From: a candidate division Zixibacteria bacterium SM23_81
GTDB lineage: Bacteria; SM23-81
Length of the DNA stretch: 10,719 nt
NCBI GenBank assembly: GCA_001304015.1
Contig: LJUY01000071.1
Span: forward strand, 1 to 10,719
Reading direction: 5' to 3'
Shown: positions 424 to 5,372 of the stretch, in pieces
How positions within the stretch are numbered: position 1 is the first letter of the stretch
Layout: the number at the start of each line of letters is the position of its first letter
The notes under the pieces: model-generated
What the model saw: the letters and a program-made list of their open reading frames with translations, nothing else
The model's database searches: none
What the model was told of the DNA's origin: nothing
Translations under genes and position numbers: made by a program

Positions 424-2181
424 CTACCCTGGCCTTGAGCCTGATGGGGTGATTTCTGGGGACAGGAACCACTCCAGCTTCAGAAAAGGAAAGAGATTAT
501 CTCTACGATGACACTCTCCCAGGAAATTCCATTCACCAGGATCGACATGCTCTCCGCGGCCATATTTCTCTGCCATGTCCGCTAAACGCTGAAAGGATTG
601 GTGATGCTCCACGAGTCGCAATTCGGCATAATCCCGGGCCGACCATGTGCTGATGAGAAACTGCCAATCGGAAGCCTCCAGCAGAAGGATCTCCCGAGCC
701 GCCTGGGTGAGGATATCCTGGAGGTTACGGTCCATACTCTGACCGAACTCCTTAAGAAGTGCTGCCAATCGCACCTCGTCCTCGTAAATATGCTTCCAGG
801 TCCACTCCGTCCACTCGTTGAGCCAGATATAGTGGTACCCTCCCTTGCCCCATGATCCCTCCGGCAAGGAAATGACCTTCACAGGGTGCACCTCGTCCAA
901 AAAGCGAGCGCATGTGGTCAGTTCTAGCTCTGGATCCCGATCTATTTTGTCCAAGACCTGTCTGAGCCACTGAGGTCCTTCAAACCACCAATGCCCAAAT
1001 AGCTCGGCATCAAAGGGAGCGCAGAGAATGCCCTTTTTACCTGTCTGCTGGTGGTGCTCCCGCAGAATGCCCTTTACCAGATCCACAAAGTGCTGGGCAT
1101 TTTCCGGGAGACGTTGTGCGGCTTTGTCTGGATCATACTCATCTTTCTCGGCCAGATCGCTCTTGGCACTCGTTACCCTCCAGTAACGGTGCCCGCCGGG
1201 ATAGTGCTTTTTGTGGAAGTCCAGGTACCAACCGTCACCCGGATAGCCATGTTCTCCGCTCCAAACCTGCAGGCCGGTGCTTGGATCCCGGGTAAAAACT
1301 GCCACCGGCCGTTTTCCCTCAACGGGATTGCCCACTAAATAAACCTCTCGTGGAGACTTCTCTCGATCCTCGGGCTTTTCTCGATATTGGCTTTCAAACT
1401 GGCTCCATAGGCGGCGCAGGGCTTCGAATCGGTCGATATACACGCCAACAGCTTTGCCTCCACTGAGCAAGGCTGCGTCCGCGATAAAGTACTCCAGTCC
1501 GTTCTCGGCCAAAATTTCCTCCACCCCGCGTCTGGGAGCACGTTTGGCCAGGACTGATGTTTCCACTGGAGGGGACCACTTATAGGCCGGACGGTAGGCA
1601 CATTCCGGGAGCCAGATGCCTCGAGGTGGACGCTGGAAATGGTGTCGATAGCTCTCCACACCGACGCGAACCTGAGCTCTCACGCTGTCGTCCAGACCCA
1701 GCAAGGGCAGATATCCGTGTGTGGCCGCACAAGTGATGATTTCCAAATAGCCTTCATCTTGGAGACGTCTGAAGACTTCGATGATATCTCGACCATATCG
1801 ATTTTCGAAGTTTTCCTTCACCTGGCGGTAATGATCCCGCCATCGCAGAGCCATCTGGGAGAGATGAGCTCGATCCCATTGGCGAAAGGTCTGCTGGTCC
1901 GCCTCAGCGGCCAGAATCTTACGGTCTAAGTATTCGCTGAATTCCGCTTTGAAATTCTGGTCAGCGAGTTGTTCGCAGAGTACAGGAGATAGGCCTAGGG
2001 TCAATCGGGGAGACCGGTCCGCTTCGATCAGCTCTGTGAGCACATCCAAGAGGGGAACGTAAGTCTCGGCCGCCGCTTCATTGAGCCAGTCCATTCCATG
2101 GGGCCAACGACCGTGAGCCATGACATAGGGCAGATGGGCGTGCAGCACGAAGGTGAAACTGCCCAGTGGCTTTGCACTCAT
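424..2181 (-). CDS. GH57 family 1,4-alpha-glucan branching enzyme (DUF1957 type)
   Basis: 585-residue glycoside hydrolase family 57 protein of the branching-enzyme subgroup. It would cut alpha-1,4-glucan and re-join the piece as an alpha-1,6 branch during glycogen synthesis in the cytoplasm. Visible family motifs, in order: HAHLPY (H14, H16); ATHGYLPLL near 153-161; WLPECAY with probable nucleophile E193; APFDAELFGHWWFEGP with probable acid/base D391; and the late GSWGKGGYHYIWLNEWTEWTW and SDWQF segments typical of this subgroup. The length fits bacterial GH57 branching enzymes (about 520-600). The ATG is preceded by an AAAGGG ribosome binding site about 6 nt upstream. It is the last gene of the minus-strand cluster, separated by 120 bp from the preceding gene. 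No signal peptide is seen. An alpha-amylase or 4-alpha-glucanotransferase activity is the alternative, but the motif set and the C-terminal helical part favour branching enzyme. Confidence 0.9.
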   Translation of the reverse strand: MSAKPLGSFTFVLHAHLPYVMAHGRWPHGMDWLNEAAAETYVPLLDVLTELIEADRSPRLTLGLSPVLCEQLADQNFKAEFSEYLDRKILAAEADQQTFRQWDRAHLSQMALRWRDHYRQVKENFENRYGRDIIEVFRRLQDEGYLEIITCAATHGYLPLLGLDDSVRAQVRVGVESYRHHFQRPPRGIWLPECAYRPAYKWSPPVETSVLAKRAPRRGVEEILAENGLEYFIADAALLSGGKAVGVYIDRFEALRRLWSQFESQYREKPEDREKSPREVYLVGNPVEGKRPVAVFTRDPSTGLQVWSGEHGYPGDGWYLDFHKKHYPGGHRYWRVTSAKSDLAEKDEYDPDKAAQRLPENAQHFVDLVKGILREHHQQTGKKGILCAPFDAELFGHWWFEGPQWLRQVLDKIDRDPELELTTCARFLDEVHPVKVISLPEGSWGKGGYHYIWLNEWTEWTWKHIYEDEVRLAALLKEFGQSMDRNLQDILTQAAREILLLEASDWQFLISTWSARDYAELRLVEHHQSFQRLADMAEKYGRGEHVDPGEWNFLGECHRRDNLFPFLKLEWFLSPEITPSGSRPG

Positions 2182-2301: not shown

Positions 2302-2883
2302 TCATCGAGTGAATCGTGAGTCCATCTTCATGAAAGCGGCGATCTCCTCCTCGTTCAGCGGAACAAAACCCTCGGCCAAAAAGGGAAAGGGACCCTCCAG
2401 CCCGGCCTTCTCCTGCTCCTTGGCCCATGAGGAGAAAGCCAGCTCCAAAAGTAACCCCTTTTCTCCGCCGGCTTCCAACCAGCGGAAGCTGAACGAGTCG
2501 ATGGCCATGAATCGCAGCCCCTGAATGGCCTCTTGGAATGAGGGGGAAAAATTTGGGGCTACCAGAATGAGCCTGGGATAAAGGACTAGATTGGCCTGCC
2601 TGTCGGCTACGACATCAGCTATTTGGTGGCGGTTTCGCCAAAGCCAGCTCACGTGAGCCAGCCCCTCCACCAGCAGCTGGTCCGCTTGCCGGGGCGACAC
2701 ATCTATGACCACCAGACGACGCTGAACATCCACGCCCAGCAGATCCATGGGCCCGAACTTTCCACCGCCGTCATGCTGATCCAAGATCTTTAAACCCTGC
2801 TCCAGAGCCGCACAATGCTCGGCCACAAGCTTGGCCAGCTCCTCTCTGTTTTTCAAAGGCAAATGGGTAAACACCAAGGTCAC
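2302..2883 (-). CDS. Hypothetical protein resembling a degenerate PD-(D/E)XK nuclease fold
   Basis: 193 residues, no signal peptide or membrane segment. I do not recognise a named family with certainty. Residues ~20-85 follow the layout of NucS/DUF91-like PD-(D/E)XK domains: an early helix with E28, then GPMDLLGVD (D47), then a hydrophobic strand VVIDVSP, then a helix and HVSWLWRN. In active enzymes the strand carries E/D-x-K; here it reads D61-V62-S63, so the catalytic lysine is replaced. The protein would therefore be non-catalytic or use another residue. A second strand/helix region follows (VLYPRLILVAPNFSPSFQEAI), and the tail has LNEEEIAAFMKMD. The start is GTG at 2881-2883, sharing a GTGA overlap with the upstream stop, which indicates translational coupling to the MinD/FlhG-like gene. 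The fold assignment is by eye. Confidence 0.72.
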   Translation of the reverse strand: MTLVFTHLPLKNREELAKLVAEHCAALEQGLKILDQHDGGGKFGPMDLLGVDVQRRLVVIDVSPRQADQLLVEGLAHVSWLWRNRHQIADVVADRQANLVLYPRLILVAPNFSPSFQEAIQGLRFMAIDSFSFRWLEAGGEKGLLLELAFSSWAKEQEKAGLEGPFPFLAEGFVPLNEEEIAAFMKMDSRFTR

Positions 2884-3833
2884 GGACGATCCTCCAACGC
2901 TTGAAAGAGAGAGGCGAAAAAGGAACTGCTACCGGTCTGGGCTCCGGTCTCCTCCTGAGCCATGATTCTCTCAGCGATAAGGCTAAGACACGTCGCTGCC
3001 TTGCTCCTTATGGAGGAGAGTGCCAGAGGTTTTCGTTGCGAGATTGATTTGACGATGTTCAGGTCAGCGAACAGGAAGCCCAGGTTGGTGATGTCGGAGT
3101 TCAAAAACTTCCGAACTACCTGAGTCATCCTGTTGGTGACGGCCTCGGCCTCGGCCACCATCCTGATATTATAGGCCACCATCCCGACCAGGGCGTTGGG
3201 CCTCAGGCCCAGGATTCTCTTAATGGCTGCGTAAGCATCGATCATGCCCAGATGATCTGAGGGAACCAGAACCACGATCTGATGTGCCATCTGCAAAATC
3301 AATCGAGAGTTGGAGTTAAGGCTTGCGGAGACGTCCACCAGCATCACCTGAGCGTCGGCTTCGAAGGCCATTAGCCTGGCAAGAAGTCGACGGCGGATTG
3401 TCTCCGGAAGGGCCGAGAGCTTGGAGAAATCGATATCCAGGCATAAAAGCCGCGATCCATATGGTCCCTGAAGAACGACCTGGCTTTCCTGGGCATTTTC
3501 CTGAGCCATAGCCCAGTACGCCATCGACTCACCCGGTCGTAATCCCCACAAGAAGGGCTGATCGGGGAAGTTGAGGTCAGCATCAAGAACCCTGACCTGA
3601 TGACCTCGCCGGGCCAGTTCGATGGCCAAGTTGCTCACCAGGAATGATTTCTCTAGGCTCCTGTGGTCACCAGTAACGGCCACCACTCTGGGGAAGTGAT
3701 GCTCAGTGTTCTTTTTAACTGGCGGGGAGGGCGCAGGTAGTTCTTGGGAAGATGTTCGCTGTTTCTCATCAGTGGAAAGGAATAGATGGGAGATATCCTC
3801 CAGACCCTTACCCAATCTTTTATGATTTTTCAC
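2880..3833 (-). CDS. MinD/FlhG-like P-loop ATPase homologue with degenerate Walker A
   Basis: 317 residues from a GTG start at 3831-3833, overlapping the end of the ParA-CBM48 gene by 14 bp. The frame stays open upstream to 4244, but that extension is antiprotein-like and lies wholly over the CBM48 coding sequence, so I reject it. Residues 1-20 are a basic motif (KRLGKGLEDISHLFLS); 21-46 are a Pro/Ser-rich linker; 47-290 are a SIMIBI ATPase domain. The Walker A' strand VRVLDADLNFPD (D84, D86), the switch-like LVDVSASL (D167) and the C-terminal part (EAEAVTNRMTQVVRKFL ... LGFLFADLNIVKSISQR) look like FlhG/MinD. The Walker A loop, however, reads DHRSLEKS (56-63) where GKGGVGKT is expected, keeping only the final Lys-Ser. 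It probably binds nucleotide weakly or not at all and may be a partner or adaptor of the neighbouring ParA. No flagellar genes are nearby. Confidence 0.85.
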   Translation of the reverse strand: MKNHKRLGKGLEDISHLFLSTDEKQRTSSQELPAPSPPVKKNTEHHFPRVVAVTGDHRSLEKSFLVSNLAIELARRGHQVRVLDADLNFPDQPFLWGLRPGESMAYWAMAQENAQESQVVLQGPYGSRLLCLDIDFSKLSALPETIRRRLLARLMAFEADAQVMLVDVSASLNSNSRLILQMAHQIVVLVPSDHLGMIDAYAAIKRILGLRPNALVGMVAYNIRMVAEAEAVTNRMTQVVRKFLNSDITNLGFLFADLNIVKSISQRKPLALSSIRSKAATCLSLIAERIMAQEETGAQTGSSSFFASLFQALEDRP

Positions 3834-4938
3834 CTCGCCGTGTCTCTTTCCGCTGACGGTACTTGATGACCGAGTTCCAGCCCCCAAAGGGACTCTCCGT
3901 CTTATTGGGATTTTTAGGATCCTCCAGCCACTGGCCGTCCACCACGAAGCGGTACTGGTAGGTTCCCGGCTCCAGAGGCAGCACTTTTGACCAGACACCC
4001 TGGCCTTCGGTGTCCAGCAGGACTCCCTTATTGGGATTCCAGTTGTTGAAGTCCCCGGCCACCTGCACGTTCTTGGCTCCCAGGGCTTTGATGCTGAACT
4101 TGATGCCGTTCTTGACCGTCTGTGGTCCCAGAGGAGTGGTGATAGTAGGCTCAGGTCTGTCCCCGTAAGCCCTGGTTTTCGATAGGGAGTGCACCTCTTT
4201 GGCAAGGGCAGCGTAGTCCCGGTAGCCGCTGCTGCGACGGTCATACTGGCAGATAGGCTGGCCGAAGCCGGTGGCCTCCTTAAGGCGAACGTTTATGTGG
4301 ATGATGGTCTTGAAAAGGTTCTTGCCGAAGTATTTACGGAGCTCACCGAAGACCTCACCAGCGATTCTGGTACGGCGATCATAGAGGGTGGCCAGAGCAT
4401 GTACGTGTTTTTTCTGATCGAACCGGTCTTCTACTAGCTTGATGGTCTCGCTGAGCTTGCCCAGGCCATGCAGGGCAAAAAAGCTGGCCTCCACGGGAAC
4501 GATCAGTTCACGGGATGCTCTGAGGGCATTGAAGGTGAGCAGGCCTAAGCTGGGTGGACAGTCGACGATGATATAGTCATAGAAATTGGGCATTTCCGCC
4601 AAAGCGTTTAACAGGCGGTCCTCCCGGCCTGGTTGTCCAGCCAGTTCCTGCTCCACTGCGCTGAGGATGATTCCTGAGGGCGCCAGATCAAGATATTTGT
4701 CCACTCCGATGATAACATCTTTCATCCCCGTATCCCAGTGGCTTTCGGAGAGGACGTGGTACATGTTTTTCTCCAGTTCCTCGGGCTTAACGTTGAAGCC
4801 CAGGGAGGCATGGCCCTGAGGGTCCAGGTCCACAAGGAGGACCTTTTTCTTGCTCTCTGCCATGCAAGCGGACAAATTGATGGCCGTAACGGTCTTAGCA
4901 CAGCCTCCCTTATGATTGACCACAGCGATGGTTCGCAT
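3820..4938 (-). CDS. ParA/Soj-type ATPase fused to a C-terminal glycogen-binding CBM48 domain
   Basis: 372 residues. Residues 1-255 are a full ParA ATPase: deviant Walker A KGGCAKT (10-16, with signature Lys10 and catalytic Lys15), Walker A' LVDLDPQG (D37, D39), Walker B DYIIVDCPPSLG (D126). ParA proteins dimerise on ATP, bind DNA non-specifically and move or space cargo such as plasmids, chromosome origins or protein compartments. Residues ~275-360 are a CBM48/AMPK-beta-type carbohydrate-binding module: VQVAGDFNNWNP (W300), GTYQYRFVVDGQWLEDP (W337), then NPNK and the closing FGGWNSVI. Such modules bind glycogen or starch. A ~20-residue linker joins the two. ATG at 4936-4938 has a strong GGGGGA Shine-Dalgarno. 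No ParB gene is in the window. The Walker A glycine before Lys15 is Ala, a variant that may still be active. Domain calls are firm; the combined role is inferred. Confidence 0.93.
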   Translation of the reverse strand: MRTIAVVNHKGGCAKTVTAINLSACMAESKKKVLLVDLDPQGHASLGFNVKPEELEKNMYHVLSESHWDTGMKDVIIGVDKYLDLAPSGIILSAVEQELAGQPGREDRLLNALAEMPNFYDYIIVDCPPSLGLLTFNALRASRELIVPVEASFFALHGLGKLSETIKLVEDRFDQKKHVHALATLYDRRTRIAGEVFGELRKYFGKNLFKTIIHINVRLKEATGFGQPICQYDRRSSGYRDYAALAKEVHSLSKTRAYGDRPEPTITTPLGPQTVKNGIKFSIKALGAKNVQVAGDFNNWNPNKGVLLDTEGQGVWSKVLPLEPGTYQYRFVVDGQWLEDPKNPNKTESPFGGWNSVIKYRQRKETRRGEKS

Positions 4939-4995: not shown

Positions 4996-5322
4996 CTACT
5001 GTAATTTCTCTCCGGAGCCTTCGGGGCGTGCGGTCTGGAAGCCTATCTCCTGGCCCTTATGTCCCATAAGCTTGATGTTTCCGAATCGTTCCTCAAACTT
5101 CTTGATATTTTCCTGCAGAGCGTTGAGGAGCATCTTGATGTTCTGAGGGGTCATGACGATGCGCGCGTAGACCTTGGTCTTCTTGACACCTGGCATGACT
5201 CGGGCGAAATCGATGAAGAACTCTGAAGGGGAGTGACTGATCAGAGCCAGGTTAGAGTAAATCCCCTCAGATTCTTTCTCGCCTAGCTCCAGGGAAATCT
5301 GGTGGGGTGGTTTTTCGGGCAT
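4996..5322 (-). CDS. DUF3467 family protein
   Basis: 108 residues from the ATG at 5320-5322. This start has a GGAGAGG ribosome binding site at ideal spacing, so I prefer it to the TTG four codons upstream, which lies inside that site. The sequence matches the DUF3467 family pattern: IYSNLALISHSPSEFFIDFARVMPGVKKTKVYARIVMTPQNIKMLLNALQENIKKFEERFG, here read as segments of a single ~65-residue domain. DUF3467 proteins are small, cytosolic, widespread and of unknown function. The tail after residue ~85 is short and polar. It is the first gene of the minus-strand cluster, 57 bp upstream of the ParA-CBM48 gene, and has its own candidate promoter at 5373-5401. Co-transcription with the ParA fusion suggests a shared role, but nothing in the sequence shows what it is. 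Confidence 0.9.
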   Translation of the reverse strand: MPEKPPHQISLELGEKESEGIYSNLALISHSPSEFFIDFARVMPGVKKTKVYARIVMTPQNIKMLLNALQENIKKFEERFGNIKLMGHKGQEIGFQTARPEGSGEKLQ

Positions 5323-5372
5323 AATCCTCTCCAACTATGATACGACCCATTATGTTGTATTCGACGTCGGTT

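Follow-up and report, generated by a model that had tools for sequence, protein, structure and literature searches.

Bacterial polyester granules and carboxysomes are placed in the cell or shared out at division; to our knowledge no comparable placing machine exists for glycogen, and in the systems of which we are aware it is the partner protein, not the ATPase, that carries the cargo-binding part. It has been reported that partners of ParA-type ATPases exert their effect by means of an N-terminus that is disordered and basic, and McdAB, ParC/PpfA in chemotaxis and FlhG all combine a dedicated ParA-like ATPase with a member of a diverse set of partners that share this feature (PMC10241942); for ParB, an N-terminal motif is reported to be sufficient to stimulate ParA (PMC12462528). 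Where CBM48 modules are concerned, that of AMPK beta sits on a kinase complex, and plant PTST uses one non-enzymatically as an alpha-glucan anchor (PMC4339375), PTST being a coiled-coil adaptor with neither an ATPase nor nucleoid-based movement.

The locus described here lies in a window of 10,719 nucleotides (the whole stretch of DNA that was analysed) and encodes a ParA ATPase that carries a CBM48 module of its own, followed by a partner gene and a third gene (Table 1). It resembles McdAB and its like in pairing a dedicated ATPase with a partner whose N-terminus is disordered and basic, but differs from these and other ParA/MinD cargo systems in that a putative cargo module is fused to the ATPase itself, and in that what it carries would be a polysaccharide used for storage. 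The reading that we prefer, to which we would give roughly even chances, is that this is a positioning system of the ParA type in which the ATPase brings along its own anchor for alpha-glucan, with release through partner-activated ATPase activity. More tentatively, with confidence somewhat below even, it may be a widespread dedicated machine for positioning and partitioning glycogen, built from a nucleoid-walking ATPase fused to a polysaccharide anchor, from unrelated partners sharing a ParA-activating tag, and from a pseudo-nuclease as third member. If confirmed, the system would take its place with the ParA/MinD positioning systems and be novel in both cargo and geometry: the grip would lie on the ATPase itself, and what it grips would be a polysaccharide. 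The open-access literature, to which the search was confined, yielded no paper describing a ParA–CBM48 protein or a glycogen-positioning ParA.

Table 1 Features of the locus, with positions numbered along the window.
Feature	Position	Strand	Remarks
GH57 1,4-alpha-glucan branching enzyme	424..2181	-	585 aa; 120 bp downstream of third gene, same strand
Third gene, NucS C-terminal (PD-(D/E)XK)-related	2302..2883	-	193 aa; overlaps partner gene by 4 bp
Partner gene	2880..3833	-	317 aa, GTG start; directly downstream of ParA gene, overlapping it by 14 bp
Partner N-terminal 20 codons	3774..3833	-	VKNHKRLGKGLEDISHLFLS; putative ParA-contact/activation peptide
ParA–CBM48 fusion	3820..4938	-	372 aa; ORF, Pfam, phmmer, AlphaFold2
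Fusion P-loop	4891..4911	-	residues 10–16, KGGCAKT
Fusion layout			ParA/Soj ATPase 1–256; disordered linker 257–267; CBM48 (AMPK-beta type) about 270–361
DUF3467 small protein	4996..5334	-	directly upstream of fusion, same strand

The ParA–CBM48 fusion and its distribution

The original prediction, that a complete ParA ATPase and a CBM48 module occupy one continuous frame, is borne out: the frame runs without interruption from its ATG start, and the Walker A motif, D37, D39, D126, W300, W337 and the closing FGGWNSVI all lie where they had been placed. Analysis of the two halves using Pfam assigned residues 1–175 to AAA_31 (E 1e-51), residues 287–359 to AMPK1_CBM (PF16561; E 1.3e-13, 51.4 bits against a curated cut-off of 26.8) and residues 269–335 to CBM_48 (PF02922; E 4e-9, 37.0 bits against 22.4), and phmmer against PDB sequences matched ParA/Soj chains to residues 2–251 and AMPK beta-1/beta-2 CBM chains to residues 286–361. 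An AlphaFold2 model made from 29 homologues (mean pLDDT 88.5) has two confident domains, the C-terminal one strand-rich, joined by a linker that is modelled with low confidence. The structure comparison covered residues 1–261 of this model, the ATPase part superposing over about 250 residues on Soj/ParA entries with Z 34–39, and the CBM fold rests on the sequence profiles and the confident model. It is thereby confirmed that the protein consists of a full ParA/Soj ATPase and an AMPK-beta-type CBM48 connected by a short disordered linker.

The ATPase belongs to the ParA/Soj type, having a deviant Walker A motif with its signature lysine, the catalytic aspartates and a ParA fold over the whole domain, and it is about 40–43% identical to solved Soj/ParA structures. 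Among the 29 homologous proteins extracted from genomes (see below), K10 (the signature lysine), K15, D37, D39 and D126 are invariant, and position 16 is threonine in all except one, which has serine. R189, which we take to correspond to the DNA-binding arginine of Bacillus subtilis Soj, occurs in 27/29; at position 218, presumably another of the DNA-binding positions of that protein, 24/29 have arginine or lysine. The window protein does depart from the others in its P-loop, where residue 14 is alanine; the remaining 28 have KGGCGK[ST], and this peculiarity of the window protein alone weakens our preferred reading.

Searching 386 genomes with the whole fusion protein (E < 1e-68) gave 29 loci in 26 genomes, and at 27 of these loci, distributed over 24 genomes and 15 families, the CBM48 is present. 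Most of these proteins are 36–50% identical to that of the window, and 13 of the 15 families belong to phyla other than that of the window's genome. The prediction had asked whether the fusion might prove to be confined to a single assembly with a coverage break at the domain border; recurrence on this scale excludes a coverage break, a misassembly or a one-off fusion. When further genome contigs were searched with the fusion protein, the matches were to the CBM48 only, the ParA part being absent, and viral contigs gave no match. A plasmid search gave ordinary ParA among the matches listed; 10 of its records, including one from Nocardia farcinica at 30% identity, had at least 80% coverage.

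In a phylogeny built from just the ATPase domains, for which candidates were picked by full-length score so that CBM-less relatives are under-sampled, a branch with support 100 separates 23 Soj-type proteins from all of the fusions together with two CBM-less proteins. The window's genome (G000) also has a separate Soj, followed by a ParB-like gene, on another contig (C55), and this, together with the support-100 branch, rules out the idea that the fusion is merely the chromosomal Soj with a tail. The two CBM-less proteins come from a single genus (G089 and G229; L055 and L088) and retain a tagged partner (LGRGLAEVSNVFQ); they group with the fusion of G358 at support 99, which suggests that the CBM48 was probably lost in them.

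The putative glucan-binding site and the company of glycogen genes

By sequence, the C-terminal domain comes nearest, among solved structures, to the CBM48 of AMPK beta, and in the alignment W300, R330, W337 and N355 of the fusion correspond to W100, K126, W133 and N150 of AMPK beta1, so that both of the glucan-stacking tryptophans have their equivalents on what is here a bacterial ParA. Across the 27 fusions W300 and a lysine or arginine at 330 are present without exception and W337 in 26, while position 355 is asparagine in 19 and aspartate in five. Plant PTST lost its ability to bind starch when the two tryptophans at the aligned positions were mutated (PMC4339375). Although falling short of proof, these residues offer strong support for the view that the CBM48 of the fusion would bind glucan. 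Should it do so, the system could be put to the test in numerous lineages, and ParA transport would gain a new geometry, in which the ATPase grips the cargo.

It must be considered whether the fold might instead have been taken over for contact with a protein (a glycogen enzyme, say, or the product of the third gene), with glucan binding lost. CBM48 modules in multidomain proteins do also mediate intramolecular contacts, and the operon contains a small conserved third protein that could serve as such a partner. However, loss of glucan binding would be expected to release the tryptophans and K/R330 from constraint, and that these are kept in 26–27 of 27 proteins, at overall identities mostly of 36–50%, argues against this explanation, which we regard as decidedly improbable.

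The original prediction also asked whether the fusion tracks GH57 or GlgB branching enzymes, and here the outcome depends on whether genomes or gene neighbourhoods are considered. Counted by genome, the branching-enzyme C-domain of GH57 occurs in 21 of the 26 carriers as compared with 142 of the 360 other genomes (one-sided Fisher p 4e-5), a strong match to glycogen-synthase-type GT5 (E < 1e-50) in 24/26 as against 231/360 (p 0.0016), and some GH57 match in every carrier; these are plain genome counts, uncorrected for common descent or for genome size. Linkage, on the other hand, is weak: tests for conserved linkage between GH57 and the operon found none beyond the window itself and a distance of 9 kb in G138, the GH57 genes of the remaining carriers being on other contigs or far away. 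That the operon does not regularly have glycogen genes as neighbours also counts against our preferred reading.

The same figures bear on a further proposal, namely that the ATPase brings a glycogen-enzyme complex (branching enzyme, synthase) to some site in the cell, the CBM48 reading nascent glucan, so that granules would be seeded and finished ones not distributed, much as PTST, a non-catalytic CBM48 targeting protein, delivers granule-bound starch synthase in plants (PMC4339375). Besides the precedent of PTST, the presence of a GH57 branching enzyme in the window's gene cluster and the tracking of branching enzyme with the system speak for such delivery. Set against the lack of conserved GH57 linkage at other loci, these points leave it, in our estimation, very unlikely.

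The partner gene and its N-terminal tag

What the original prediction did not remark upon is the gene directly downstream, which emerged as a common companion when neighbourhoods were compared. Its product begins with a disordered, basic stretch (KNHKRLGKGLEDISHLFLS) containing the motif KRLGKGLEDISHLFLS; residues 1–43 are predicted to be disordered (pLDDT < 50), and a basic LGKGL motif lies within them. The body of the protein (residues 46–315) has, by structure comparison, the FlhG/FleN/MinD fold, with Z 24–29 at 21–24% identity; the best match is to FlhG (Z 29.3 at 23% identity), the FlhG/FleN fold being matched at Z 29.3 and 27.0. Unlike FlhG/FleN, it does not have an intact deviant Walker A motif: the P-loop is degraded to GDHRSLEKS, and in an alignment of 14 FlhG-type partners KGGxGK[ST] occurs in none, the nearest approach being GKGVRGKT (G138). 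The N-terminal motif also differs from what we take to be the known activator motif of FlhG, and the window contains no flagellar genes. A search with a profile of these partners found them in 14 genomes having this ParA clade and in 0/360 others (E 1e-52), a comparison in which, the profile having been built from the same partners, only the absence from other genomes is informative.

At 24 of the 29 loci, representing 24 of the 26 genomes, the gene that immediately follows the ParA opens with a tag resembling LGRGLxDISHxFLS. Three of the five loci without a tagged partner (G001:C210, G138:C76 and G231:C19:631924-632970) are second ParA–CBM48 copies, the other copy in each of those genomes being accompanied by one. 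The tag is the only part conserved across the 24 partners and all partner types: in a second type (G027, G174 and G312, at L056, L097 and L095 respectively) a DISHYFLS tag stands on a different domain, which begins ENCASCAHLIA and has no match in Pfam. A strict form of the pattern, written after the sequences had been inspected, is found in 20 of the 24 N-termini as against 0.01 expected in shuffles, and nowhere in the remaining 5,528 partner residues; those that fail the strict form are G121, G229, G258 and G368.

The comparison with ParABS is instructive. As with ParB, the partner gene lies directly downstream and its product bears an N-terminal basic peptide of LGxGL type; the ParB-like gene that follows Soj in the window's own genome begins MARKALGKGISAIIPDVS, and an LGKG-hydrophobic pattern is common to that start and to the partner tag. 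The tag thus resembles, in sequence, the peptide at the N-terminus of ParB through which ParA is bound and activated, and by this analogy we infer that it may contact and activate the ParA encoded beside it. In contrast to ParABS, the ATPase here has a C-terminal CBM48 and forms a clade apart from Soj, and the gene next to it encodes an FlhG/MinD-fold protein (or, at other loci, another domain) and not ParB; with no ParB gene adjoining the fusion, the locus falls outside chromosomal ParABS. As judged from sequence and model, then, the locus has what would be expected of a positioning system, namely a partner with a basic, disordered N-terminal peptide that is a candidate for contact with the ATPase, and nothing speaks more strongly for such a system, as opposed to a ParA with an incidental affinity for sugar, than the adjacency of a partner with a ParB-like motif. 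Orphan ParA proteins might also have their partners traced through the same tag, used as a sequence signature.

CBM48 is thought to report the glycogen level in AMPK, and one may therefore ask whether it acts here as a glucan sensor, through which energy reserves would switch a ParA/partner system that serves some other cargo (division, surface structures or the chromosome might be candidates). The FlhG/FleN fold of the partner body, and its variation from lineage to lineage, could provide links to cargos other than glycogen. Moreover, G089 and G229 keep ParA and partner without a CBM48, which implies that the system can work without the module and which, besides favouring a sensor, weakens the reading that we prefer. 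Against this, the partner body is variable and the glucan site hardly so, a pattern that fits a constant cargo contact placed on the ATPase better than it fits an accessory switch. On balance we think a sensor unlikely.

A possible mechanism and the remaining neighbours

Returning to a positioning system with its own glucan anchor, the cycle might be as follows. ATP-bound ParA dimers would bind the nucleoid non-specifically, and the CBM48, on its flexible linker, would hold either an enzyme particle bound to glucan or glycogen itself. The partner peptide (LGRGLxDISHxFLS) would then dock on the ParA dimer, as happens with ParB, McdB and other ParA partners, and so trigger hydrolysis of ATP and, with it, release; over many rounds in which it is tethered and let go, glycogen would become distributed along the nucleoid and be shared between daughter cells. 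This proposal has behind it the fusion and its conservation, the intact residues of the ATPase and of the glucan site, the partner with its motif, and the association with glycogen genes, from which we infer the DNA binding, the glucan binding, the action of the peptide on ParA and the movement of glycogen. A difficulty is that placing the grip on the ATPase reverses the arrangement of the known systems. Of the glycogen-linked ParA originally envisaged, the widespread architecture, the conserved glucan residues and the genomic enrichment in glycogen genes have held up well, and glycogen as a cargo that is moved would follow if the steps above apply. The occurrence of the same ParA/partner pair in many unrelated bacterial families suggests, at the level of sequence, an undescribed system that places or shares out glycogen stores.

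As to a possible kinship with McdA, carboxysome or shell genes are absent from among those window genes that have family assignments, and the ATPase is not classed with McdA. The third gene is related only weakly to the C-terminal domain of NucS (1e-6), scoring 20.3 bits against PF01939 (cut-off 24) and 28 bits against PRK04247 (cut-off 216). Its motif region reads MDLLGVDVQRRLVVIDVSP, in which the lysine is absent, and no (D/E)xK is conserved across 12 homologues, so that neither the profile cut-offs nor the catalytic D...(D/E)xK would place it among the NucS or PD-(D/E)XK nucleases; those homologues that were tried against Pfam gave no match. Relatives follow the partner gene at 12 loci (the window, L050, L052–L054, L082, L083, L085, L089, L092, L094 and L098), with W80 and E147 nearly invariant. 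The protein is probably catalytically dead, a pseudo-nuclease, and the want of a conserved (D/E)xK makes a binding protein more likely than a nuclease.

On the other side of the fusion, the DUF3467 gene adjoins it in only three genomes, those of the window, G001 and G002, all of the same phylum. Elsewhere in the window's genome, where there are nine CBM48 matches in total, a CBM48 of the AMPK type lies beside a GH57 domain within a frame of 1137 residues (G000:C85:7700-9925), and next to that frame lies another, of 147 residues, which also has a CBM48.
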